IMG/VR virus record: IMGVR_UViG_3300036760_000083
Span: 1 to 41,210 of that record
DNA length: 41,210 nt
Direction: 5' to 3' (one strand)
Source of the DNA: a virus
Below are positions 1 through 41,210 of this stretch, piece after piece (within the stretch, counting starts at the first letter, position 1; each line of letters starts with the position of its first letter). The position numbers were made by a program, and so were the translations under genes. The notes under the pieces were generated by a model, which was not told the origin of the DNA, did no database searches, and was given only the letters and a program-made list of their open reading frames with translations.

Positions 1-931
1 CAATAAGCGAAGGTTTTGCGAACTTGTCGCTCTTGTTGTGTCTAAACTCACCCCAGTATTCAAGAACTTCTATTTTCCCTTCAAACTTTTTCGATTCTGT
101 CTTATTTTTCTTGTTCCGGCTGGCAGTAGAACTAAAAGAAGAATTTTCATCTTTCTTTTCTTCTTCTTTTTTCTCGTCAAGCAGTTCTTGTATTTTTTTC
201 TTGTTCCGTTCGTAATTGGGATTTTGTGCCAGTTCTTCTAAAGAACGGTAAGTGCGATGGATAACAAACTCCATCTTTTGGATGTCGGTATTCGTGGCCG
301 AACGCGGAATGAAAAAATCGAACAAGGACAGATTATAAAATACAGGACCATCGTGTTTTTTATACTCGTTCGTCTGCGTGATTGTTTCAAATTCTCCAGT
401 ATCTATCGCTTGTCCAGTAAGAGGATCAATGCCAATAATAGGTTGGTCAACTTCTTCATCAACGTCTAAAATATCTGTTTCCCATGCAACCTTCATTACG
501 GCAGTTCCGTATTTTCCAAGATTTCTATAGTATTGAATTTTAGCCGGAAGGAACCCCCCACAATCAAGCTGATACTGCGCGTAATTCGTTATTTCTTCCG
601 CAGCGGGCTCGTCGTCTAAATTACGACCTTCATAAGCAATATACGGAGCTTCTCCAAGCATCGTCTCCGTCATAGTATCTACAAAAGGCTCGACTTGCTG
701 AAAACCGAGAGGAAGTTCTAAATTAGCTCGTCCATAAGGAACATTGGATTTGGCTGCACCTTTGGTGTAAAGGCGGTCAAAATAAGTAAATTGTTTAAAT
801 TTTTCACAATAAAAAGTTTCTGAGTCTTTCTTTGCCCCACAAACCAAATCAATAGCACGTTGCTCTACATCAGAAACATCTTCTGTTTCTTCCTTCGGGA
901 TTTCGTTGTCGGTTTTCTTTTTTCGCGCCAT
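1..931 (-). CDS. portal protein, N-terminal part (runs off the window)
   Basis: The portal is the dodecameric ring at the capsid vertex through which DNA is packaged and ejected. Reading leftward from ATG at 931 the frame is open for 310 codons to the window edge. The product starts MARKKKTDNE and contains a segment with PYGRANLELPLGFQQVEPFV, a polar insert rich in K and E (about residues 255-285), and then VLEYWGEF, typical of large portals of short-tailed phages. The C-terminal part is at 40272-41210, so the window was opened inside this gene. A direct join of the two ends puts the halves out of frame, and the usual stretch between the YWG motif and an NPF..PF motif is missing, so some tens of residues lie outside the window. 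It starts one nucleotide past the end of the terminase nuclease frame. Portal identity is by pattern recognition and gene order. Confidence 0.85.
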   Translation of the reverse strand, partial: MARKKKTDNEIPKEETEDVSDVEQRAIDLVCGAKKDSETFYCEKFKQFTYFDRLYTKGAAKSNVPYGRANLELPLGFQQVEPFVDTMTETMLGEAPYIAYEGRNLDDEPAAEEITNYAQYQLDCGGFLPAKIQYYRNLGKYGTAVMKVAWETDILDVDEEVDQPIIGIDPLTGQAIDTGEFETITQTNEYKKHDGPVFYNLSLFDFFIPRSATNTDIQKMEFVIHRTYRSLEELAQNPNYERNKKKIQELLDEKKEEEKKDENSSFSSTASRNKKNKTESKKFEGKIEVLEYWGEFRHNKSDKFAKPSLI

Positions 932-932
932 A

Positions 933-1673
933 TTAGAAAGGGTATTCGTCCTCTACGAAATTTTCTCCACCAAAAGAACCATCAGATATAGGAAATCCTG
1001 TAGATGTGTCATATTTAATATTAGAAACATGAGAATTTTTAGTAGCAACAGAACCTTCGATTATAAGTCGGGCTTGTTCCCAAGCTAGGGCTAGAGCCAT
1101 GACTCGATCATCGTGGGCATTTCCTTTGGCTCCAAGCTTTCCCGTTTTTTGATCTTTACAAAAACTCCCTAATTCTTGAATCGTATATCTGTCGTATGTC
1201 GTAACTTCTCCAGCCTTCATTGCCGCTTTGAAATTTCCGATTAATCTAGGTTTGCTGTTTGGTCCTGTTTTAAAACCAATAATCTTTGTGCGCTTCGCTG
1301 TGAATTCATTATATTCAATTCGACGATACAGATTGGAATAAGCAAGTGACCCTGCGGAACCACCCAGGATTGCGATAACGCCATTGCCATGATTATTGGC
1401 TTCGACATTGATAAATGCTTTGTTGTACCAGATTCCTAATTTGTACAATTCTGCCGCGTAAGTATCAATGTCAGAAGAATTGGACCAATAAGAAGCAACA
1501 TGAACCCCGTTGCTGCAATCTAATACAGCGGCGCAAGAAGCGTCGCCTCCGATTCCTTCGGCTACGTCCGCGCCTATCGCGTAAACGCCCGTAGGTTTCG
1601 GTTTGACCCAAATTCTAAATCCCGCGTAGTCTCTTAGATTTTTGGCGTCGCGGTGTTGTAAAGATATTTTCAC
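933..1673 (-). CDS. terL: terminase large subunit, nuclease half
   Basis: This is the RNase H-like nuclease domain that cuts concatemeric DNA during packaging. Reading from GTG at 1673 it gives 246 residues. Near the N-terminus is GFRIWVKPKPTGVYAIGADVAEG with the first acidic residue at D36, and D44 lies in GIGGD. EANNHGNG follows in the middle, and HDDRVMALALA near the end holds the last metal-binding acidic residues. It lacks an ATPase domain, which is in the separate frame at 1794-2819. Both frames are in the same register (start difference 1146 nt, a multiple of 3). No Shine-Dalgarno sequence precedes GTG 1673, which argues against independent translation and for a joined product of about 589 residues. 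The coordinates given are the open nuclease segment. Splicing or bypass would place the true junction at the AAT codon at 1680-1682. Confidence 0.85.
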   Translation of the reverse strand: MKISLQHRDAKNLRDYAGFRIWVKPKPTGVYAIGADVAEGIGGDASCAAVLDCSNGVHVASYWSNSSDIDTYAAELYKLGIWYNKAFINVEANNHGNGVIAILGGSAGSLAYSNLYRRIEYNEFTAKRTKIIGFKTGPNSKPRLIGNFKAAMKAGEVTTYDRYTIQELGSFCKDQKTGKLGAKGNAHDDRVMALALAWEQARLIIEGSVATKNSHVSNIKYDTSTGFPISDGSFGGENFVEDEYPF

Positions 1674-1679
1674 AAAATA

Positions 1680-1799
1680 ATTTCATATAACGGGATCGAA
1701 TTACTTCGTCTTTAGGCGGGAGCGTCCTCCCTAGCAATAATCCTTATCCTCTGAGTATTAGTTTATTGGGACTAAGCAGAGGCCCGTTGTAGACTAATT
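1680..1799 (-). other. structured intervening sequence splitting terL (bypass element or mini-intron candidate)
   Basis: Read on the minus strand, the ATPase frame ends with AAT (1799-1797) followed at once by TAG. After 114 nt with in-frame stops TAG, TAA, TAG, TAA and TGA, an identical in-frame AAT (1682-1680) opens the nuclease frame. AAATTA is shared at both borders. Complementary arms fold the interval: a closing stem of CCCGTT 1783-1788 with AACGGG 1689-1694; hairpin A of CAGAGG 1777-1782 with CCTCTG 1748-1753, continued by ACTAA 1771-1775 with TTAGT 1758-1762; stem B of 1736-1743 with 1698-1705 (8 pairs, 2 G-U); and, inside stem B, hairpin C of 1727-1731 with 1718-1722 around a GACG loop in the RNA. 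Hairpin A adjoins the closing stem. A translational bypass like that of T4 gene 60 (matched codons, UAG after take-off) or a very small intron would both restore the protein. I could not find a convincing group I core. Confidence 0.6.
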
Positions 1800-2819
1800 T
1801 AAAACTAAATCACCTATAAAACTAGGAGCTTTCTCATTCTTCCACAAAGCACCTAAAACATCGGGAGGAAATTCAGAACTAGAACCGGACAAGAAACAAG
1901 TTAAGGGGTCTTCGGGATATTTCCGTAAAAACTCCCCCTCATCGCCTCCGGATTCAGAAATTTTTAATCGTCTCCAAAGAATGTGCTCGTTTTGTAAGTC
2001 GTATTGTTTTGTTAATCCGTGTTCTTTATCTGTAACTTTAAATTCTTTGGTGGGTTTCAACATTCCCAAATCTTCTTCTTCTGGGTATTGTGTCCACCAG
2101 GGAAAGAAGTGTCCTTTGTACATTGACACGTCGCCCTTGTGATATAAGTCCCAAAGATCATAAAACATTCCCGCCGCCGTATCGGGCGTAGTTTCCATGA
2201 TAACCCAACAGGATAAGGGAACGGATTCAACAGATTCCGAGATTCGAGAATCTTCTACGAAGGCAGCTTCCGAAATATGCAAGAAGTCTAAAGTCAAGCC
2301 TTTCGATTCGGTGCAAACGATCAGTTCCGATCCGGTTTCTTTTATGTGCAACTCAGATACGTTATCAACCGTGTTCGTAACCGGATAAAACTGACCCCAG
2401 TCTTTTTGAAAAGCGCGAAAAGCTGTTTTAGTAATACGAAAAAATTTCTTAACATTGTCTTTAACATGGGCCATTACCGCAGAATGCGTTCCTGGTTCCC
2501 ATAAAGCTTTATCCAGACCGATAAGGCAAGAAAGAGTCGTAACGCCTCCCTGCCGCATCTTGACTATTAAATCCCGGTTAGTGCGATCTTTCCAGAACAA
2601 GTTTTGAAGTTTGTTCATTTTAAAAAACTGTAATCGGGAAGGAACGCCTGGGATAGGACGTTTGGGACGGATGCGATAAAGATTATTTAATCTTTCCCAT
2701 TGTCCCAAAGACAAACAAGCCTCTCGGAAATATGTTTGGATCTCTTCGTCGCTTGCTTTTGAATCTATAAGCGATTTGATGCGATCCGCAACTTTCTGAA
2801 AGGCTGGTGTGTAAGACAT
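1794..2819 (-). CDS. terL: terminase large subunit, ATPase half
   Basis: This is the ATP-driven motor domain of DNA packaging, acting at the portal. It has 341 residues from ATG 2819. A variant Walker A, RQGGVTT (residues 89-95), follows the conserved FFKMNKLQNLF segment, and Walker B with the catalytic glutamate is LDFLHISE (about 177-184). CWVIMETTPDTAAGMFYDLW matches the coupling motif region, and FLRKYPEDPLTCFLSG is the usual end of the ATPase domain. The frame stops at TAG just where the nuclease domain should follow, and that domain continues in the same frame after about 117 nt. No good ribosome site precedes ATG 2819. Its leader holds a long hairpin at 2847-2895 and a promoter at 2918-2946. 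Confidence 0.9.
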   Translation of the reverse strand: MSYTPAFQKVADRIKSLIDSKASDEEIQTYFREACLSLGQWERLNNLYRIRPKRPIPGVPSRLQFFKMNKLQNLFWKDRTNRDLIVKMRQGGVTTLSCLIGLDKALWEPGTHSAVMAHVKDNVKKFFRITKTAFRAFQKDWGQFYPVTNTVDNVSELHIKETGSELIVCTESKGLTLDFLHISEAAFVEDSRISESVESVPLSCWVIMETTPDTAAGMFYDLWDLYHKGDVSMYKGHFFPWWTQYPEEEDLGMLKPTKEFKVTDKEHGLTKQYDLQNEHILWRRLKISESGGDEGEFLRKYPEDPLTCFLSGSSSEFPPDVLGALWKNEKAPSFIGDLVLN

Positions 2820-2846
2820 TCTTACTTATTTGTGGGGTGGGGTGAT

Positions 2847-2895
2847 GCTCCCGGTCGCGCAAAGTCGGTCTGACTGTGCATTTATGACCGGGAGC
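2847..2895 (-). promoter_or_regulatory. 10-bp-arm hairpin in the terL leader
   Basis: GCTCCCGGTC at 2847-2856 is perfectly complementary to GACCGGGAGC at 2886-2895, with a 29-nt loop. It lies between the predicted terL promoter and the terL start codon, so it would form in the mRNA leader. The run between the hairpin and ATG on the minus strand is C-rich (CACCCCACCCC) and has no Shine-Dalgarno sequence. It could be a leader control structure, a processing site, or part of a packaging recognition site beside the terminase genes. The function is not known from sequence. Confidence 0.5.
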
Positions 2896-2917
2896 TTGGT
2901 GGGTTCACCTAATAACC

Positions 2918-2946
2918 AACATAACATAAAAAAACAGACATGTCAA
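2918..2946 (-). promoter_or_regulatory. sigma70-type promoter for terL
   Basis: On the minus strand TTGACA lies at 2946-2941, then a 17-nt spacer, then TATGTT at 2923-2918 preceded by a TG extended -10. Transcription would start near 2911 and run through the hairpin leader into terL. Confidence 0.55.
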
Positions 2947-2974
2947 GCGAAATCGTACAAGGACTAAAAATAAT

Positions 2975-3130
2975 TTAAACAGCGATAATCTGGTAGCCGT
3001 GGCAGTCTTCTAAAGAAGCAATGTAACTATCTGAATAGATTGACATATAACGCATACGTTCGTAAGCCCACAGATATTTTCCGTAGTGCTTTCTCTCTAA
3101 AAAGTCAATAATTCTAATTAGTTCGCCCAC
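2975..3130 (-). CDS. small hypothetical protein (51 aa)
   Basis: The minus-strand frame from GTG 3130 to TAA 2977-2975 encodes MGELIRIIDFLERKHYGKYL and continues with a tyrosine-rich middle (YERMRYMSIYSDSY) to IIAV. It begins 6 nt after the stop of the upstream 61-residue gene and in the same frame, and AAGGGAGA at the end of that gene could serve as ribosome site at a long spacing. ATT one codon upstream is a less likely start. The composition looks like coding sequence, but no family is recognised. It lies between the small and large terminase genes, where small late genes often occur. Confidence 0.45.
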   Translation of the reverse strand: MGELIRIIDFLERKHYGKYLWAYERMRYMSIYSDSYIASLEDCHGYQIIAV

Positions 3131-3136
3131 AATACA

Positions 3137-3322
3137 TTAACAGTAATCTCCCTTACGGTCATAATTTGCCATAGGGGCCTTCTTGCTGTTATTCTTTGAT
3201 TCTTTGTTCGGCTTCCAGCCGGTATTACGTAAAGTGCCATACACATACGCCCCGGTTCGCTCTTTTCCGAATCCACGAGCACGGGCTTGTTTCTTTAATT
3301 TCTGTTCAAGTTCTTTGGGCAT
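3137..3322 (-). CDS. small conserved phage protein (61 aa), basic
   Basis: The 61-residue product starts MPKELEQKLKKQARARGFGK and has a central AYVYGTLRNTGWKP segment, followed by a K/N-rich tail ending KGDYC. Proteins of the form PKELE.KL....AY.YGT.R.TGW are common small phage proteins of unknown function. ATG 3322 is preceded by AAGAGGAA at good spacing. It is the first gene after the minus-strand promoter at 3585-3613. The basic charge suggests nucleic acid contact, which is inference only. Confidence 0.7.
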   Translation of the reverse strand: MPKELEQKLKKQARARGFGKERTGAYVYGTLRNTGWKPNKESKNNSKKAPMANYDRKGDYC

Positions 3323-3507
3323 TGGATATTCCTCTTGTCACAATTCAAACGCTTTGGGGGAAAGGTTAAGACTTACGGACTGGGTCTGGGGCTAGATGCT
3401 TGTTGTTGCAAATAACGGCCCATATTCAATTCTGGTAATTGTGGATAGATTTATCCTGTCGATCAATTGCTTCGCTGTGCGGGCTATCGCACATGCTCGT
3501 GATTGCC

Positions 3508-3525
3508 TGTGTACGACTGTACACA
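3508..3525. promoter_or_regulatory. palindrome, operator-like
   Basis: TGTGTAC (3508-3514) and GTACACA (3519-3525) are perfect inverted arms around GACT. The site lies about 60 bp downstream of the -10 box of the leftward promoter at 3585-3613. Its form is that of a dimeric repressor or activator site, but no candidate regulator is encoded nearby. Confidence 0.4.
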
Positions 3526-3544
3526 CTCAATCACTTCCTATCGC

Positions 3545-3560
3545 GTATTTCACCCCACAA
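3545..3560. repeat. 16-bp inverted repeat, left copy
   Basis: GTATTTCACCCCACAA is the exact reverse complement of 4571-4586, about 1 kb away on the other side of the small terminase gene. Its TTGTGGGGTG core occurs a third time at 2830-2839 beside the terL start. Confidence 0.7.
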
Positions 3561-3584
3561 CAACACTTGTTTTGCTTGGTTTCT

Positions 3585-3613
3585 AGTTTATCATATTTTG
3601 AGAGAAAAGTCAA
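3585..3613 (-). promoter_or_regulatory. sigma70-type promoter, leftward
   Basis: On the minus strand TTGACT at 3613-3608, a 17-nt spacer, and TAAACT at 3590-3585. It would drive the 61-residue gene at 3137-3322 and read on into the terminase genes. The transcript start would fall near 3578, just before the 16-bp repeat copy. Confidence 0.5.
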
Positions 3614-4032
3614 GTAAAAAATGAAAGTGCCAGATATTTCTGTATGTTTTTAGGTATCCCGGAGGCCCGAATTTCCTTAATTAAATCAGTAGAATAGAAC
3701 ACACGGAGGGGTGGGGGTATGGGTCGGTATTCTAAAAAATTATTATTTTCCTCTAAATCATGCAAAACTGAAATGTTCCTGGAAACTATAATAATTCCAG
3801 TACTATATGCGAAAGTGCGGGTATCGTCCCTCATATCCTCTGTATCCATCTACTTGTATCTCTTAAGGAATCCCTTATTTTCATTCGCACCCACTCGCAC
3901 TCGCACGTATTTTCGAGCCGGGGGTAGGGGGGGGTACCCTTGACATTACACTTGCAATTGCAATCACTGTGTACAGCTAACGATTGCACCCACCTACTGC
4001 AATCGAGTGCAACTACTATACCAGTGCAATTG

Positions 4033-4419
4033 TTAGGCTTTCGGAAGGGTGTACTTATTATGCTGGATAGCAGTCTTGGGTCCGCTAGTTGCACTTGCAA
4101 TAACCTTGCCTATCTCTCCGAGAAACTTCAGTGCTTGCAATTGCAATTTCTCGTCATTGGAGTCTAGCCACTTGCGAGATAGTGCGAGTGCAATGTCTGT
4201 TACTTCTTGCCAATGCGTCTTTACCCCACCCAGTATACTGTCAATCGCGCCAGATGCGTTAGCCCGGGTGAGTAATTCTGAACCCGCTACCTTTGCACTC
4301 TCGTGGGTTAAATGTGGCTTAAGCGATTGAATTGCTTGCGTTGCGTTCATGCCATTATCGAGATAAGCAGTCGCAAAGAGTCTTTCTTCAAGTGCTTTTG
4401 TCTCGGGTTTCTTGGCCAT
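4033..4419 (-). CDS. terS: terminase small subunit candidate
   Basis: The 128-residue product has the N-terminal helix-turn-helix pattern of terminase small subunits: MNATQAIQSLKPHLTHESAK followed by VAGSELLTRA (about residues 23-52), then a helical oligomerisation region (about 70-105). Such proteins recognise the packaging site and hand DNA to the large subunit. Gene order (leftward, before the large terminase and portal) supports this. The start ATG 4419 has no clear Shine-Dalgarno sequence. The leader from the predicted promoter at 4733-4762 is about 300 nt long and full of TTGCAA sites. The short C-terminal tail (KYTLPKA) is unremarkable. Assignment rests on the helix-turn-helix pattern and position. 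Confidence 0.7.
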   Translation of the reverse strand: MAKKPETKALEERLFATAYLDNGMNATQAIQSLKPHLTHESAKVAGSELLTRANASGAIDSILGGVKTHWQEVTDIALALSRKWLDSNDEKLQLQALKFLGEIGKVIASATSGPKTAIQHNKYTLPKA

Positions 4420-6214: not shown

Positions 6215-6378
6215 AGATTAATCAAAGATTCATTGCACGCACTGATTATATTACTCTTGACGATGATTACGAGATTAACATTTATCCGCAATTAAAGGTT
6301 GACGAGGAAGCCGTATATCAGTACGATCAAAATGGGGTGGACGTTATTGGGTGGATAATAAAGGAGAAATATAAATGA
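6211..6378 (+). CDS. small hypothetical protein (55 aa)
   Basis: ATG 6211 overlaps the previous stop (ATGA), and its TGA 6376-6378 overlaps ATG 6375 of the next gene. The product starts MKINQRFIARTDYITLDDDY and ends GWIIKEKYK. This tight double overlap and acidic composition like its neighbours argue that it is real. No function is recognised. Confidence 0.7.
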   Translation: MKINQRFIARTDYITLDDDYEINIYPQLKVDEEAVYQYDQNGVDVIGWIIKEKYK

Positions 6379-7013
6379 AATACAAAACTACTAAAGACGA
6401 GAAAACAGGCTTATATAGGATTGAAGCCTTGATTGATATTCCTAAATGGGGAATTGTGAAAGGCGATAAGGGCGGTTTGTTAGAAAAAGAAAACAGTCTT
6501 TCACAAAATGGCAATGCTTGGGTGTCCGACGATGCTCAGGTGTCCGGCAATGCTCGGGTGTACGGCAATGCTTGGGTGTACGGCAATGCTCAGGTGTACG
6601 GCAATGCTTGGGTGTCCGGCGATGCTCGGGTGTCCGGCGATGCTTGGGTGTCCGGCGATGCTCAGGTGTACGGCAATGCTCAGGTGTCCGGCGATGCTCG
6701 GGTGTACGGCAATGCTCAGGTGTACGGCAATGCTCAGGTGTACGGCGATGCTCGGGTGTACGGCAATGCTTGGGTGTCCGGCGATGCTCGGGTGTCCGGC
6801 GATGCTTGGAAAAAATCTCCTTTATATATTTGTGGAACTAAATTCGCACTAACCAACTGTAAGAAAGGCTATATTCAGATAGGCTGTTTATGTTACACCT
6901 TTGCGAAATGGTTAAAGAATTATAAGAGGATAGGCAAAGACAACGGTTTTACCGATGCGGAAACAGAAGAATATTACGAGTACATTAAACTATTTAAAAA
7001 AATAGGTAAGTAA
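6375..7013 (+). CDS. hexapeptide-repeat (left-handed beta-helix type) protein
   Basis: 212 residues in three parts. Residues 1-45 are a short domain (KYKTTKDEKTGLYRIEALID). Residues about 46-145 are some 16 hexapeptide units of the form G-(N/D)-A-(R/Q/W)-V-(Y/S). Residues about 146-212 are a mixed domain with two cysteines in IQIGCLCYTF and a helical end. Hexapeptide repeats of this spacing form left-handed beta-helix prisms in acyltransferases and in phage proteins of unknown role. No acyltransferase catalytic histidine is evident, so a structural or binding role is likelier. GGAGAAAT precedes ATG. A promoter for the next genes follows at 7022. Confidence 0.75.
   Translation: MKYKTTKDEKTGLYRIEALIDIPKWGIVKGDKGGLLEKENSLSQNGNAWVSDDAQVSGNARVYGNAWVYGNAQVYGNAWVSGDARVSGDAWVSGDAQVYGNAQVSGDARVYGNAQVYGNAQVYGDARVYGNAWVSGDARVSGDAWKKSPLYICGTKFALTNCKKGYIQIGCLCYTFAKWLKNYKRIGKDNGFTDAETEEYYEYIKLFKKIGK
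6510..6809 (+). repeat. tandem 18-bp repeat within the hexapeptide gene
   Basis: Units of 18 bases vary only at a few fixed positions (GGC(A/G)ATGCT(C/T)(A/G)GGTGT(C/A)C), about 16 units in a row. Units alternate between a few near-identical versions, as expected for slippage or unequal exchange. The array is open in all three forward frames. Confidence 0.9.
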
Positions 7014-9169: not shown

Positions 9170-9757
9170 GTGGCAGATAAAGACAACAATGATGGCGTGA
9201 GCGGGTCCGATGGCGTGAGCGGGTCCTATGGCGTGAGCGGGTCCTATGGCGTGAGCGGGTCCGATGGCGTGAGCGGGTCCTATGGCGTGAGAGGGTCCGA
9301 TGGCGTGAGCGGGTCCGATGGCGTGAGCGGGTCCTATGGCGTGAGCGGGTCCTATGGCGTGAGAGGGTCCGATGGCGTGAGCTTTTCAATTTTTTGTGCA
9401 AACCGGAAACGGGTGTTTAGGGTCTTTGAAAAAGACGTGACCGAGAAACGCTTTTGTGAAGTCTTAAACACACTTAAAGAGAAGTTAAATGGTTGGCACC
9501 CCAAGATGAATACAGCTTTTACTTTGTACGATGCGAAGGGACGCAAGTGGTCGAAGATTGACGCAGCGAATATCCAAGATCAAGACGACAAAACTGCGTG
9601 GGCGGATATGCCAAAAGAAGCAATCGACTACTTAAAGAGTTTGCCGGAGTTTGATGCTTCTATTTTTACAGCCGTGACAGAAATTGATTTATCTGTAACT
9701 TGCGAAGGTAAAATTGTCGATATTGACGGAAAGAAATATAAACTAGTTTCGGTTTAA
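9170..9757 (+). CDS. protein with GVSGS(Y/D) tandem repeats and a unique C-terminal domain
   Basis: GTG 9170 is preceded by an ideal AGGAGG. Residues about 8-70 are ten to eleven copies of a hexapeptide G-V-(S/R)-G-S-(Y/D), a flexible or beta-structured low-complexity arm. Residues about 71-195 are a compact domain starting FSIFCANRKRVFRVFEKDVT and ending DIDGKKYKLVSV, without a recognised family. It directly precedes the SSB-like gene, so a replication accessory role is possible. That is inference from position only. Confidence 0.7.
   Translation: MADKDNNDGVSGSDGVSGSYGVSGSYGVSGSDGVSGSYGVRGSDGVSGSDGVSGSYGVSGSYGVRGSDGVSFSIFCANRKRVFRVFEKDVTEKRFCEVLNTLKEKLNGWHPKMNTAFTLYDAKGRKWSKIDAANIQDQDDKTAWADMPKEAIDYLKSLPEFDASIFTAVTEIDLSVTCEGKIVDIDGKKYKLVSV
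9191..9381 (+). repeat. tandem 18-bp repeat within the GVSGS gene
   Basis: Units of the type GATGGCGTGAGCGGGTCC (alternating GAT/TAT and AGC/AGA) are repeated about ten times. The period is the same 18 bp as at 6510-6809, but the sequence is unrelated. The minus strand is open across it only because of the repeat. Confidence 0.9.
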
Positions 9758-13214: not shown

Positions 13215-13898
13215 ATGAAATTATCATTAATTGTTCTAATTATTAGTTTGATAGGTAGTTTGGGTTGTGTCCGCATATCTCGGAATACTTTATGCACATT
13301 AGAACGAGTAGACAGCGTACAGCAACACGGAGTAAAAATTACATGCAAAGATGCTCACAACAAAACCAACACATCCTTTATTTCAGACGGAGCGGACGGT
13401 AATCCTGGAATTGCCGGTAATGATGGCGAGCGCGGGACAGACGGACAAGATGGAATACAAGGAGAATCTGGCAGTGCTGGAATAAACGGCACAAATGGTC
13501 TAGATGGCATTAGCAGTGCAGATGGACAAGACGGAATAGATGGTACAGATGGAGTAAACGGCACTAGCGGCATTAATGGGGCTGATGGACAATCTTGTAG
13601 TATGGCAGAATCTGAAGAGGGAATTACAATTACTTGTCCTGATGGGTCCGAAGTCTTTTTAGCCAACGGAACGGATGGAACAGACGGTACTGATGGCACA
13701 AATGGTCTAGATGGCGCGGTTGGTGCAGATGGGGAAAGAGGCTCAGACGGACAAGATGGAATAGACGGAGCAATCGGGGAGAATGGAGGTTCTTGCTCAG
13801 TTACTTGTATCAATCATTCGACAAGAACAGTTATTGAATGCGAAGACGGTTCTTCTGTTACCATTAAGGGGCACTGTTCGGAAGACGAGGAAAATTAA
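13215..13898 (+). CDS. collagen-like lipoprotein
   Basis: 227 residues. An N-terminal hydrophobic segment ends in GSLGC (C19), a plausible though imperfect lipobox, so the protein may be lipid-anchored in the cell envelope. From about residue 60 it is a Gly-X-Y collagen-like repeat rich in D, N and T, interrupted by two cysteine modules of the same plan: SCSMAESEEGITITCPDGS and a second near the end starting SCSVTCIN. AGAGGAG precedes ATG. A lipoprotein in the early region could act at the host surface, for example in superinfection exclusion. That is inference. Confidence 0.7.
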   Translation: MKLSLIVLIISLIGSLGCVRISRNTLCTLERVDSVQQHGVKITCKDAHNKTNTSFISDGADGNPGIAGNDGERGTDGQDGIQGESGSAGINGTNGLDGISSADGQDGIDGTDGVNGTSGINGADGQSCSMAESEEGITITCPDGSEVFLANGTDGTDGTDGTNGLDGAVGADGERGSDGQDGIDGAIGENGGSCSVTCINHSTRTVIECEDGSSVTIKGHCSEDEEN

Positions 13899-23329: not shown

Positions 23330-24496
23330 TTATTCCCTTATGTCGAAGATGATCGCGTATGAGATATCACGGTCGGCTCCCTCGCTCGAATCGGCCTGAT
23401 ATGTCACCTTAAAATCATGATCTATGCCCATATTCAGATTTGCGAAGAAACCGTCATTGTCGATCGAGGCGTCATATGGGTAGGAGACGAATTCCCGATA
23501 ATCGGAACCGTTTATCTTATAATAGAGCCTAATGACGCCCGTAGTTGTGATGTTGGACATATCCAACCAGACGCCGTTGAGTGTCTTCCGTGTGGCGGTC
23601 GTGATCTCCACAAGAGTCTGTTCGCTGGTCCCAGAAGTATAGCTATAGGTGGACTCCGATTCGTCGCTGGCGGTCACTCCCTGCACAGTCGAAATTGTAT
23701 CCACGACAGTCTTTACTGCGGCGATATCGGTCCTGATCTGCGAATGGTCCTGTCCGAGATTATCGCCGATATCGGGTTCAACACGAGCGAAAATAGCGTC
23801 GATAGTGGTACTATTGCTATCCACTGTCGCCTTGATATCGACAGTCCTGCTATCTATACTGTTGACGGTGGTCTGGACACTAGCAATATCGCCGGATATG
23901 GTTCCCGTCTCGGGGGTACCGAGAGTGGCTTCTTGCGCCAATGAGGTCAGATATCCATCATCCGGAAGATGATCGACGATGGCATCGGTATTCGAGGTAT
24001 CGGACTTGATTGAGGTCAATTGATCGGTTATGTTCGTGAGTTCACCATTGTTCGGAAGATTATCGGTAACATCCTTTATTGTATTTAATTTGTAGACGAG
24101 ACTACCATCCATCGTCGCCAGAGGAAACTTTTGCGCCGATATGCCGAAGACCGTAAATTTATCATCCGGAGACGGTGCCGCCGGAAAGGAGCCACCGAAG
24201 GAAAAGAGCGTCTGTTGATTCGTATCGTAATCGGTCGCGGTGATGACTTGAGATTGCCCTTGGAGATCCACGGTCGCGGTATCGACATCGAAGGTCAAGA
24301 TAAGACCAATCAAAAAACCATCCGCGAATCTCGGATCGTACCTGAGCCCATTCAGATCCAATTGTCCGATGAAGGCACTATCGGTCGGTGAGACAATATT
24401 TCCGACCAAGAAATGGAGATCGATCAAGGTCCTGGCTACAGTGGTCAGAGAAGTCTCATCCACACTGACTTTATTATCCTGTGCTTGTATAGTCAT
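23330..24496 (-). CDS. tail/fibre-type protein, paralog 4 of 4
   Basis: 388 residues. N-terminal region (VSPTDSAFIGQLDLNGLRYD), then a long repeated-helix middle with VDSNSTTID-type segments (about 170-270) likely to form trimeric coiled coil. The C-terminal about 100-residue domain shared with the genes at 24505, 25819 and 26607 contains NGVWLDMSNITTTGVIRLYY, DNDGFFANLNMGIDHDFKVT and SSEGADRDI. High GC content (33 of 59 bases in a hand count at 23342-23400) differs from flanking genes. Probably a tail or host-contact protein. Confidence 0.6.
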   Translation of the reverse strand: MTIQAQDNKVSVDETSLTTVARTLIDLHFLVGNIVSPTDSAFIGQLDLNGLRYDPRFADGFLIGLILTFDVDTATVDLQGQSQVITATDYDTNQQTLFSFGGSFPAAPSPDDKFTVFGISAQKFPLATMDGSLVYKLNTIKDVTDNLPNNGELTNITDQLTSIKSDTSNTDAIVDHLPDDGYLTSLAQEATLGTPETGTISGDIASVQTTVNSIDSRTVDIKATVDSNSTTIDAIFARVEPDIGDNLGQDHSQIRTDIAAVKTVVDTISTVQGVTASDESESTYSYTSGTSEQTLVEITTATRKTLNGVWLDMSNITTTGVIRLYYKINGSDYREFVSYPYDASIDNDGFFANLNMGIDHDFKVTYQADSSEGADRDISYAIIFDIRE

Positions 24497-24504
24497 GTTT
24501 TATC

Positions 24505-25365
24505 CTATGGTCGCGTATCAATATTCATGCTGATAGGAATGGCCCGATCGGCCCCCTCGTCAGAGTTCTCTTCGTAAGTTATCTTGAAGTCGTAAAGAAT
24601 TCCCATATTGAGTGAGATGAAAAAACCGTCCGAGTCAGTTGCGGAATCGAAAGGAAATGAACCGGACAAACGATAATTAGTGCCGTCAATCTTATAATAT
24701 AGGCGGACCGTGCCAGAGGTCGTCAGATTGACGAGATCGAGCCAGATTCCTTGAATGGTCACACGATCACCGGCCAGGACAAGGGTCGTCAAGACTTGTT
24801 CTCCTCCCGCATTGGTATATGTGGCTGGAGCATTGTTATTGTAACTCCCGCTGAATTGCTGGACTTCGTTGAAGACATCTGTGACCTGTCCGCTGATTTG
24901 ATTGGCCCAACCGACCAGGGAGGTGGATGCGGTGGTATCATCTCGATTTCCGATTATGTCTCGAATGGTATCATTGCCACTTGCATCTATGGCCGGGACG
25001 GCCAGGGTAGCTTCTTTGGCCACCGTGGAATCCTGGGCGATACTCGTGAGAGCCCCACCATCCGGGAGTTGATTAAGAATAGAACTGGCGTTCTCGGTAT
25101 CGTCAAATATATTCTGTAGAATATTCGTATCGACGATGGCTTCCTTGAGTGCCGTGGTATCGGATTGTATGGCATCCGCCTGATCGCTCAGTGTCTTGAG
25201 CGTGTCGGAATCGGCTCCGCGAATATTTGTTTCGGCGTTGGCTATGCCTTCATTTAGATCATCATTGGAATCCTGGATATCTTCCGAGACCGATTCACCC
25301 GAAGGAGTGCCGAGGGTTGTTTCAATATCTTTTAGATCAATTTCATCATTGGGATAGATGGACAT
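24505..25365 (-). CDS. tail/fibre-type protein, paralog 3 of 4
   Basis: 286 residues. The N-terminal half has an ETNIRG..TLKTLSDQ motif (about 45-70) shared with two other paralogs, and a SIAQDSTVAKEAT segment. The C-terminal domain has QGIWLDLVNLTTSGTVRLYY, DSDGFFISLNMGILYDFKIT and SDEGADRAI. GAGGTAC precedes ATG. It lies in the GC-rich block. Confidence 0.6.
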   Translation of the reverse strand: MSIYPNDEIDLKDIETTLGTPSGESVSEDIQDSNDDLNEGIANAETNIRGADSDTLKTLSDQADAIQSDTTALKEAIVDTNILQNIFDDTENASSILNQLPDGGALTSIAQDSTVAKEATLAVPAIDASGNDTIRDIIGNRDDTTASTSLVGWANQISGQVTDVFNEVQQFSGSYNNNAPATYTNAGGEQVLTTLVLAGDRVTIQGIWLDLVNLTTSGTVRLYYKIDGTNYRLSGSFPFDSATDSDGFFISLNMGILYDFKITYEENSDEGADRAIPISMNIDTRP

Positions 25366-25375
25366 AGTTAGTACC

Positions 25376-25765
25376 TCAGATTAACCAACCGATGAGCGTC
25401 ACATCGGCCAGATATGCATCCGCCACGGCCTGACTCTCATCGATCACACTCAAGAAGACATTCCCGGCAAAGCACTGTGGAGTCACGGCCACATTAGGAT
25501 CTTTGCCGATGCACGATCCGCCGATATCCGTGACCTCGACTATATTCATGCTCGAGTAGACCTGATCCGCATCATCCTTATCCTTGTAGTGCACCCCGAT
25601 ACTCCCAGCACCGTTGATCAGTCCGGTGATGGTCGTGGGTTTGAGGATTAGGTATTGCGGAATGAACGTATGTCCATCGGGAACGACCAGGACAGTGTCC
25701 GTATTTGCGATACTGGTCAGATCCATGTTCGTCACGGTTCGTCTAATAAGCCTGGGCGTTGCCAT
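25376..25765 (-). CDS. small structural protein in the tail array
   Basis: 129 residues: MATPRLIRRTVTNMDLTSIA, FIPQYLILKPTTI and ADVTLIGWLI at the end; mostly beta-strand in pattern. It lacks the shared C-terminal domain of its neighbours and lies between paralogs 3 and 2. It shares their high GC. Probably a virion component. Confidence 0.5.
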   Translation of the reverse strand: MATPRLIRRTVTNMDLTSIANTDTVLVVPDGHTFIPQYLILKPTTITGLINGAGSIGVHYKDKDDADQVYSSMNIVEVTDIGGSCIGKDPNVAVTPQCFAGNVFLSVIDESQAVADAYLADVTLIGWLI

Positions 25766-25818
25766 AAATTACCTTTCTTAATATAGAAATCCGACTATTA
25801 TTGTATCAGTCCGTTATC

Positions 25819-26589
25819 CTATGACCCATCGACCGAGATGATCTCGAAGGCGATATCACGATCGTCGCCCTCATCCGATCCTTCGGTATAGGTCACCTTG
25901 AAATGATTCTTTATTCCCAGGCTCAGACCGGCGAAGAAGCCATCACTATCAAGCGCCGGATCGAAGGCGAAGGAAGAGACAAGGCGATAATTCGTCCCAT
26001 CAATCTTGTAATAGACCTTGACGGTTCCGGACACGGTGATGTTCGTCATATCCAGCCAGAAGCCACTCAGTATTCTCTTCACGCCATCGGTGAAGGAGAA
26101 GAGAATCTGTTCTCCTCCAGTATCGGTGTAGGTGTAGGTCCCGGTAGTCTCTTGAAGATTCTCGGTAGGTGAGATGCCATCGATCTGATCGGAGAGTGTC
26201 TTGAGCGTGTCGGAATCAGCACCCCTAATATTGGTCTCCGTCGTCGAGAGGGCCTGATCCAGAAACGCGGCTTTGCCGTCCGTCCAGGTCGCATTGGTCA
26301 GCGCGGTGGCCGACTTCGCGACGGTCGCATCTTTAGCAACAGTAGCGTCCTTGGCGACAGTGGCATCCTTCGCCACCGTGGAATCCTGCGCCAGGGATGT
26401 GAGAGCACCCGAATCGGGGAGTGCATCCGTGACCGACTTGATGCCGGTAAGACGGGACGCTACGGAACTATTCGCCACATCCCCGAGGACTCCGCCGAGG
26501 GTGGCCGTCCCTCCGGTATTGACCACCGTGCCGATCTGGTCGGTTTCTGGTTTTATTCTGGATGGTATAATATCGCTAGAAATTGCCAT
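25819..26589 (-). CDS. tail/fibre-type protein, paralog 2 of 4
   Basis: 256 residues. The N-terminal third holds SLAQDSTVAKDATVAKDAT and further VAKDAT units (a heptad-type or beta-helical stalk). ETNIRGADSDTLKTLSDQID follows. The C-terminal domain has SGFWLDMTNITVSGTVKVYY, DSDGFFAGLSLGIKNHFKVT and SDEGDDRDI. GC-rich, in sharp contrast to paralog 1 just upstream. Confidence 0.6.
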   Translation of the reverse strand: MAISSDIIPSRIKPETDQIGTVVNTGGTATLGGVLGDVANSSVASRLTGIKSVTDALPDSGALTSLAQDSTVAKDATVAKDATVAKDATVAKSATALTNATWTDGKAAFLDQALSTTETNIRGADSDTLKTLSDQIDGISPTENLQETTGTYTYTDTGGEQILFSFTDGVKRILSGFWLDMTNITVSGTVKVYYKIDGTNYRLVSSFAFDPALDSDGFFAGLSLGIKNHFKVTYTEGSDEGDDRDIAFEIISVDGS

Positions 26590-26606
26590 AAAGCACTACT
26601 CCTTAA

Positions 26607-27164
26607 TTATTCGTTAACGTTAAAAATTGCTGCATAGGGGATAGCCCTGTCTGCACCTTCATCAGTATCTTCTTGATACGTAACTTTAAAATCATCTGTA
26701 ATGCCCATGTTCAAGTTTATAAAAAAACCAGGTGTGTCTAGAGCTGGGTCAAACAAGGAGGCGTTTATTAACACATAGACGACGCCGTCGATCTTATAAT
26801 AACTTCTAATCGTTCCTTTTTGCGTAATATTACTAAGGTCTAGCCACACTCCTTGAACGGTTTTAATAGTCGCCGTAACAATAGTAAAAATAGTTTGTTC
26901 CCCACCAGCATTAGTATATGTATACGTGCTTTTGGTCTTGCTCGTTACTGCCGGTGTTATAGAATCAATCTGATCACTAAGGGTCTTAAGAGTATCGTTG
27001 TCTACGCCTCTAATCGCAGTCGCAGCGGCTGTGATGGCAGCCTCTAAAAGAGACTCATCCGCAGGATCGGACGGAAGATTATCCGTTTTAGCTTTTATGT
27101 CTGCAACTTCTGGATTGACCTCAGCAAAAATTTCTGCGTCAAAAATCGTTGATGTAATAGGCAT
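26607..27164 (-). CDS. tail/fibre-type protein, paralog 1 of 4
   Basis: 185 residues, the shortest of the set. AIRGVDNDTLKTLSDQIDSI links to the shared C-terminal domain (QGVWLDLSNITQKGTIRSYY, DTPGFFINLNMGITDDFKVT, TDEGADRAI). Base composition is AT-rich (21 G or C of 60 in a hand count at 26641-26700), like the rest of the genome and unlike paralogs 2-4. Confidence 0.6.
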   Translation of the reverse strand: MPITSTIFDAEIFAEVNPEVADIKAKTDNLPSDPADESLLEAAITAAATAIRGVDNDTLKTLSDQIDSITPAVTSKTKSTYTYTNAGGEQTIFTIVTATIKTVQGVWLDLSNITQKGTIRSYYKIDGVVYVLINASLFDPALDTPGFFINLNMGITDDFKVTYQEDTDEGADRAIPYAAIFNVNE

Positions 27165-39951: not shown

Positions 39952-40272
39952 CTACGTTTTACCGTATTGGTCGCGTTCCTGTTTTTCGGCTTCCAAGTTT
40001 TCGAGTCTAAGAAGTGCTTCGCCGTGTTGTTGGCATAAGGCTTCTACAGTCTCTAACATGGATTTAAAAGCTCTAAATCTTTCTTGAAGACGCAACATTT
40101 TCTTCGGGTCTTCTTCATTCAAAATCTGGTCATTGATAACTTGTAAAACTTGTTTAAAGTGTGCGTCCACAACCGCCCAACCAGGCATACCCATCAGTTC
40201 TTTTACAGAACCCAATAGAGCTAATTCGTGTCGTAGATTTTTCTCTTCTTCGACAGAATCAAGTTCTTCCAT
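39952..40272 (-). CDS. hypothetical coiled-coil protein between portal and scaffold
   Basis: 106 residues, nearly all helical and charged: LDSVEEEKNLRHELALLGSV, then WAVVDAHFKQVLQVINDQIL and RLQERFRAFKSMLETVEALC. ATG 40272 overlaps the portal stop (TAATG). Small proteins at this place are common in short-tailed phage head modules, with a role in assembly. No specific family. Confidence 0.65.
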   Translation of the reverse strand: MEELDSVEEEKNLRHELALLGSVKELMGMPGWAVVDAHFKQVLQVINDQILNEEDPKKMLRLQERFRAFKSMLETVEALCQQHGEALLRLENLEAEKQERDQYGKT

Positions 40273-41210
40273 TACACGGTTCCTTGTGATCCTTCAGGAG
40301 GCTGTTCTACTGGCTTTCCGGTTTCATCTACAGGAATAACCTGTACCGGCTGTCCTGCTTCATCAACAAATTGTCCGTCAGGAGTTTGAATAATCGTTGT
40401 CTGCGAGGGACCTACGTACTTCTCCGGGTGGGGCATTCCTGCCAGTTTTGCAGTGTCTTTAATAAGCTCTTCAACTTTAATATTAACATTGGGCTTGACT
40501 TTGATTATCTGTCCAACAGTCTGTAAGAAATAACCCATATTGCCGCGCCGCTCATCAATAGAGAGTTTTTGTGGATTGCTCGTAGATTTAAAATCGACCT
40601 CTGTCAAAAACGCATCAGACGGAAGATGTTTGTAGGGATTTTCGGTGTCTTCTCCCGCAATTCTATAATACACATCGTCTGTAATCAGGTCTCGATTATA
40701 CCAGTTAAGCATGTGAGCCAGGGGCTTGAAAAAAGTTTGTTCCTGCAACCGCGCTTTTGTCAGAAGGCGTCTGTTTCCTTTGCCTGCCATGAAATTAACG
40801 CCGGTCGCCGTTCCAGAGAACGCACCTCCAACTGAGGCCACGTCTTGACGTGGATTCACAATTTCCGTCGTATTTTGAATATCCCAATCAATCCTAGCTA
40901 ATTCATTAACACTCGAAGAGGTTACTTGCCCCATATCCATGGGACGAATACCATTCAGGTCATTGGTAAGAATTACTTTATTAGGAGCGGTGTACAGTTC
41001 CCGTAAATTAACTCCTGCGTGACGTTCAACCAACCACACTCTATTAAGACTAATGTTGGCGACATCCAGACGGGCATTTCGTAATGCGGTTGCTTCTTCA
41101 ATAAGACCTTTGATATGATGCAACTCTCCATATCCGTAAGCTTCGCCCTCAATCGAATAGTCATTAGACATGAGAAAAGGTTTAAACTTAAATTTAAAAG
41201 GATTAAGGTC
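40272..41210 (-). CDS. portal protein, C-terminal part (enters from window edge)
   Basis: The minus-strand frame is open from 41210 and continues the gene at 1-931 with a gap. It reads DLNPFKFKFKPFLMSNDYSI, an NPF....PF motif typical of mid-portal. The next part is GYGELHHIKGLIEEATALRN with ARLDVANISLNRVW, then MAGKGNRRLLTKARLQEQTF and a helical barrel; the C-terminus is a proline and glutamine tail (PDETGKP-like). The first codons fit the reading frame of ATG 41171, so that ATG is internal rather than the true start. Minimum combined length with the N-terminal part is about 620 residues. Confidence 0.85.
   Translation of the reverse strand, partial: DLNPFKFKFKPFLMSNDYSIEGEAYGYGELHHIKGLIEEATALRNARLDVANISLNRVWLVERHAGVNLRELYTAPNKVILTNDLNGIRPMDMGQVTSSSVNELARIDWDIQNTTEIVNPRQDVASVGGAFSGTATGVNFMAGKGNRRLLTKARLQEQTFFKPLAHMLNWYNRDLITDDVYYRIAGEDTENPYKHLPSDAFLTEVDFKSTSNPQKLSIDERRGNMGYFLQTVGQIIKVKPNVNIKVEELIKDTAKLAGMPHPEKYVGPSQTTIIQTPDGQFVDEAGQPVQVIPVDETGKPVEQPPEGSQGTV

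Follow-up and report, generated by a model that had tools for sequence, protein, structure and literature searches.

Large terminases are nearly always made as one chain that joins an ATPase to a nuclease, and how both activities switch is a long-standing question. The window analysed here (the whole stretch of viral DNA, 41,210 nucleotides) raises the question of how a terminase is made when the nuclease frame, terL-C, starts 120 nt beyond the end of the ATPase frame, terL-N. The original prediction had described two terminase frames in the same register with five in-frame stops between them, and this is confirmed by the sequence, the stops being TAG at 1796-1794, TAA at 1760-1758, TAG at 1733-1731, TAA at 1703-1701 and TGA at 1685-1683. 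The AAT codon that precedes the first stop (1799-1797) was correctly noticed to recur after the last (1682-1680), and is part of a 6-nt direct repeat, AAATTA. The nuclease frame was also said to have no ribosome site; its GTG at 1673 has a Shine-Dalgarno (SD) score of -0.8 kcal/mol, equivalent to no SD, while an SD is present at most other genes of the window.

Both halves are recognisable as terminase. In a profile search terL-N matches phrog_2 (PHROG 2, terminase large subunit) across the ATPase part with an E-value of 4.8e-16, and its best Foldseek match is the ATPase domain of T4 gp17 (E 1.1e-5; the confidence of the model is modest, pLDDT 64). It shows 55-72% identity to the ATPase-only proteins of relatives. 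terL-C matches Pfam PF17289 (Terminase_6C; E 1.7e-7) and, by profile, the RB49 gp17 nuclease 3c6a (E 5.4e-15), its predicted fold matches the T4 gp17 and G20c nucleases (Foldseek E 7e-12), and the likely catalytic residues D36, E91 and D188/D189 are invariant in 11 sequences. Profiles, Foldseek and catalytic residues all indicate that each domain is complete in its separate reading frame. In its domains, their order and the likely catalytic residues the terminase of the window is of the T4 gp17 type (Terminase_6C or RNase H-like nuclease, PHROG 2), with an ATPase like that of T4 gp17 and a nuclease like those of T4 and RB49 gp17 and G20c, but unlike these proteins it is encoded in two genes, split inside the inter-domain linker.

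This arrangement is not peculiar to the window. Relatives were collected by scanning viral contigs with ATPase and nuclease profiles, which gave a clade at 55-72% ATPase identity; a scan for further terL/portal relatives returned only L001 and L035 again with the portal, and none from genome contigs. Two-gene terminases were found in eight distinct relatives within this range of identity, and in seven of the eight the insert is absent, the two genes overlapping or nearly abutting and the nuclease starting at the position of the window GTG. In L001 the ATPase gene ends in GGATGA and the nuclease starts at that ATG. The same ATGA stop-start overlap is seen in L011, L036-38 and L041-44, the overlap is longer in L013-16, and a gap of 1-2 nt separates the genes in L039 and L040. 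The M-K-I-x-F found at the N-terminus of the nuclease in relatives aligns exactly with GTG-AAA-ATA of the window, so that the nuclease ATG of L001, L011 and L036-44 is aligned with the window GTG, and that of L035 lies one codon upstream. In L012 (57%), L017, the annotated phages MW202801 and MW202803 and others this linker runs uninterrupted through a single fused protein, and the sister or outgroup terminases (L012, L017 and L003) are fused at the split point. Among the fetched terminases with both parts, 71 rows were fused and 29 split, duplicates included. The protein tree, with L012 outside the split clade, allows for one change from fused to split.

At the level of sequence comparison these data establish that the terminase of the window is a two-gene terminase by descent and that the arrangement is common to its clade. 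The spacer is thus an addition to a gene junction that already existed. A genuine two-protein terminase had been listed among the alternatives in the original prediction, and it is this alternative that matches the gene arrangement in L001, L011, L013-16 and L036-44. In the proposed comparison with relatives lacking the interruption, the insert-free members of the clade have two genes, and fused genes occur in L012 and the outgroups. Separate ATPase and nuclease frames were also observed in distant phages, overlapping in L102 (2230-2345) and L123 (1070-1180) and about 200 nt apart in L113 (2180-2480), which suggests that splitting of the large terminase happened more than once. A phrase search of the literature found no description of a two-gene large terminase, the matches concerning intron-split terL. 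A phage clade with ATPase and nuclease as two proteins is one in which the two activities have been separated genetically.

The eighth two-gene relative, L035, is an independent contig with 65% ATPase identity in which about 100 nt lie between the ATPase TAG (4083-4085) and the nuclease ATG (4184). A covariance model that used only the window element and the fold predicted for it was run unfiltered on L035. The top match was to 4079-4178 (18.2 bits, E=0.0013), the next best scoring 5.6 bits; the best score in 91.6 kb of other related loci, also searched unfiltered, was 12.7 bits. With default speed filters the spacer of L035 was not reported. All 15 comparable base pairs are kept between the two elements, five of them by compensatory change and none broken, and controls in which the partners were slid gave no compensatory pairs. 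P1 in L035 is GCGGC/GCCGC with two compensatory pairs, P2 is CCGCUG...CAGCGG with one compensatory and five identical pairs, and P4 is UGAG-GUAA-CUCA with two compensatory pairs and an identical tetraloop. A structural descriptor of the P1-P2-P4 layout was matched by none of 3000 shuffles of either sequence and at about five unrelated chance places in 1.68 Mb, and the alignment of the two elements has a z-score of 4.5, its score being reached by none of 2000 shuffles. In a column-shuffle test of covariation the observed score was reached in 23 of 500 shuffles, and the covariation statistics are thin because the RNA is carried by two sequences only. MAFFT alignments of the two elements put P2 one base out of register. 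The pairs were accordingly counted on the model-fitted alignment, which is biased towards structure, and it is the unfitted search with the window-only model that gives the homology claim its strength. Covariation of the fold in related phages, which the original prediction had put forward as a check, is thus found in one homologue with five compensatory pairs. Taken on this comparative basis, an RNA of approximately 100 nt with a conserved fold replaces the gene overlap in the window and in L035.

The fold as modelled (Table 1) differs in part from the closed three-way junction proposed originally. The closing stem and the hairpin now called P2 are upheld with high pairing probabilities, and the extra hairpin is likely. 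The 8-bp stem 1743-1736/1705-1698 was rejected, having a probability of about 0.25, competing with the conserved GUAA-tetraloop hairpin P4 and not being conserved in L035. Single-sequence fold energies are ordinary (z-scores of -1.3, -1.5 and -0.2, those of the window being -1.3 to -1.5), and it is the comparison with the L035 homologue, not fold energy, that places the structure above chance. A pseudoknot has similar relative positions in both elements, but it is kept as a candidate only, since random 4-bp matches are frequent (nine in the window element and two in that of L035).

Table 1. Coordinates of the terminase genes and of the intercistronic RNA in the window
Feature	Position	Strand	Remarks
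terL-N, terminase ATPase-only protein	1794..2819	(-)	341 aa; ATG 2819, TAG 1796-1794; C-terminus GDLVLN
terL-C, terminase nuclease-only protein	933..1673	(-)	246 aa; GTG 1673, without SD
Structured intercistronic RNA element	1684..1794	(-)	Modelled length 111 nt; helices P1, P2 and P4, the last two joined by a long segment
P1 closing helix, 5' arm AACGGG	1783..1788	(-)	Pairs with 1694-1689; pair probability 0.85-1.0
P1 closing helix, 3' arm CCCGUU	1689..1694	(-)	Pairs with 5' arm; probability 0.85-1.0
P2 hairpin CCUCUG...CAGAGG	1748..1782	(-)	Stem 1782-1777/1753-1748, probability 0.85-1.0; stacked directly on P1
P2 inner stem	1775-1771/1762-1758	(-)	Window only
P4 hairpin CGAA-GUAA-UUCG, GNRA-type tetraloop	1697..1708	(-)	Pairs 1708-1705/1700-1697; 2 bases before P1 3' arm
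Extra hairpin GGGAG-GACG-CUCCC	1718..1731	(-)	Between P2 and P4; stem 1731-1727/1722-1718, probability 0.93; absent from L035
Candidate pseudoknot	1724..1772	(-)	P2 loop GUCC 1772-1769 with GGAC 1727-1724; GACC/GGUC in L035; weak
Direct repeat AAATTA, first copy	1795..1800	(-)	Contains AAT codon; not as such in L035
Direct repeat AAATTA, second copy	1678..1683	(-)	By sequence

The RNA appears to be rare. Rfam gave no family at gathering score for the spacer of the window or for that of L035, and blastn with either element found no copy in 50,697 phage records. A degenerate pattern run over all viral contigs matched only L035, and over genome contigs it gave five bacterial matches, all at chance level by covariance model. 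A two-sequence covariance model run on 11 whole phage records recovered the window and L035 copies only. A tRNA or tRNA-like remnant was considered and none was found by ARAGORN. The fold, being one that is not in Rfam, provides a small and concrete construct.

The two ends of the element point to its possible role. P1 starts at the ATPase stop in L035, or a few bases after it in the window, and 11-16 nt separate its end from the nuclease start. For L035 an outer helix is predicted in which the nuclease SD, AAGGUU, pairs with ACUU just before the UAG with a probability of 0.61-0.88. In the window the outer pairs that extend P1 are weaker (predicted probability approximately 0.5) and there is no SD there to sequester. 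A terminating ribosome would cover exactly the bases that pair stop with start, which makes a cis translational device replacing the ATGA overlap the best reading of the element. We would give about an even chance to the proposal that this is a two-gene terminase whose intergenic RNA acts in cis on nuclease translation, a regulatory role read from position and predicted pairing. P1 and its outer extension would reach from the ATPase stop to just before the nuclease start and so tie one to the other. A ribosome ending the ATPase would then unwind the outer helix together with the 5' arm of P1, which would free the nuclease start region, and in L035 the same unwinding would free the SD that is predicted to be paired with the bases before the ATPase stop. 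The outcome may be that nuclease synthesis stays dependent on ATPase synthesis, as with the ATGA overlap of the relatives, or that the ratio of the two is tuned. L035 might accordingly represent coupling by RNA unfolding and the window, which is without an SD, perhaps a bridge between stop and start. Some coupling would be expected in the window, as its nuclease gene has no SD though the phage uses SDs. The presence of a conserved RNA between terL-N and terL-C suggests that the ratio or the timing of the two proteins is controlled.

Coupling by RNA unfolding with sequestration of the ribosome binding site is an established mechanism (PMC12548453). In the phage and bacterial operons that use it a structure links the upstream stop with the downstream start, as the predicted pairing would do here, and there is no strong free downstream ribosome binding site (PMC12548453). 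Against a cis role stand the weak outer helix and the missing SD of the window, the small number of sequences (two) with the RNA and its absence from L001. Structure right after the stop codon has also been reported to reduce coupling efficiency (PMC12548453), which bears on the window, and the elaboration of P2-P4 exceeds the needs of a simple hairpin that sequesters a ribosome binding site. Unlike those systems (PMC12548453), in which the structure is a simple hairpin, the phages described here would couple their genes through a multi-helix RNA of about 100 nt with a conserved tetraloop.

The phylogenetic distribution of the element bears on a different explanation. In the protein tree the window groups with L001 (93%), which is without the RNA, and a sister grouping of the window with L035 only narrowly escapes rejection (AU p = 0.052). 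The RNA has thus either been lost from L001 or been gained at this site on more than one occasion, and it is dispensable in the L001 lineage. Presence and absence at one exact site, with a clean ATGA in the closest relative and the element in a more distant one, could be explained by a structured element, such as a mini-intron, that is mobile or excises itself, lies at the exact junction and is removed from the RNA or moves between phages; its excision would bring back either an overlap of stop and start or a fused frame. The near-rejection of window and L035 as sisters favours this explanation, as do the AAATTA repeat that flanks the window copy and the fact that equal boundaries relative to P1 would re-establish the frame in both phages, a 1-in-3 coincidence. 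Group I introns are moreover known in phage terL, in Bastillevirinae (PMC11878797) and in Jug phages (PMC12363816), and there too a structured RNA interrupts terL coding information. However, the non-coding part of phage group I introns measures 350 +/- 108 bases (PMC11878797), far above the approximately 110 nt seen here, and no intron covariance model from Rfam, group I included, matched window 1200-2300 or L035 3950-4300 at E-values up to 5. The element also differs from these introns in lying between two complete genes of a clade that is already two-gene without it, so that the split is independent of the element, and in L035 the nuclease carries its own SD and ATG. As to movement, neither the 11 records nor the pattern searches of viral and genome contigs gave a further copy. 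On balance we regard a mobile or self-excising element as unlikely.

A stand-alone functional RNA, for example a packaging RNA or one that binds a phage protein, would account for the fold, with its GNRA-type tetraloop and possible pseudoknot, being more elaborate than a start-site hairpin needs, and for its location within the packaging module. No promoter-like or terminator-like site flanks it, though, most of the clade is without it, and the position of P1, right at the stop and the start, points to action in cis; we consider a stand-alone RNA somewhat more doubtful than a mobile element. We are just as doubtful of the broader possibility that the element is the first of a class of small (about 100 nt), site-specific structured RNAs in phage packaging modules, either self-excising and much smaller than known introns or part of the packaging machinery, and not a simple translational spacer.

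A similarly low probability attaches to there being no selected RNA here, the likeness to L035 arising by chance or from an assembly artefact. The ordinary single-sequence fold energies and the existence of two members only would agree with this, but an independent contig holds the homologue at the same site, its E-value comes from a model that never saw L035, and the shuffled alignments and the five compensatory pairs also speak against it. That the ribosome bypasses the spacer in the manner of T4 gene 60 and makes a single fused terminase is very improbable. The window has the structured non-coding gap after an in-frame UAG, the matched codon on each side and the common register that led to the parallel being drawn in the original prediction, but the shared register is a 1-in-3 coincidence and the frames of L035 do not share one register, ACT precedes the ATPase stop of L035 and no Thr codon lies in the nuclease frame between the last stop and the ATG, its nuclease has its own AAGG SD and ATG as separate nuclease starts are found throughout the clade, relatives without the insert have two genes and not one, and the gap measures 114-123 nt, which compares with 50 nt in gene 60 and is roughly double the distance of approximately 56 nt beyond which gene 60 sliding loses processivity (PMC11194080).

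Several further observations were made in the window. The starts of terS (4419), terL-N (2819) and terL-C (1673), in the minus-strand region 931-4419, are all without an SD, while most window genes have clear ones. The leader of terL-N contains a very stable hairpin (inside 2820-2915, minus strand; z-score of -6.96), stronger than the spacer, which is followed by the SD-less ATPase start. At 698-792 in L001 lies a hairpin that differs in the sequence of its stem but shares the layout and the AUAAA internal loop, and in the window as in L001 CACCCCACCCCACA follows the leader hairpin ahead of the SD-less start. This likeness is based on separate folds, an automatic two-sequence consensus fold not having aligned the helices. 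Strong hairpins are also present in the terL-N leaders of L011 and L012. The leader hairpin of terL-N is possibly a translational operator; if it binds a protein in that role, translation of the packaging genes may be controlled both there and at the spacer.

The portal gene leaves the window at its start (1-931) and resumes at its end (40272-41210), which gives the contig the look of a circularly permuted and almost complete phage genome that lacks a few residues where its ends meet; the window ends share no exact terminal repeat of length 12 or above. Genes with tandem short repeats are located at 6375-7013, 9170-9400 and 13215-13898, the repeats being VSGDAWVYGNAQ-like, GVSGSDGVSGSY-like and collagen-like GxxG. 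Several neighbouring structural genes at 23330-27164, on the minus strand, have a repeated C-terminal domain in common (GVWLDMSNI...YYKIDGTNYR...) and are apparently tandem duplicates.
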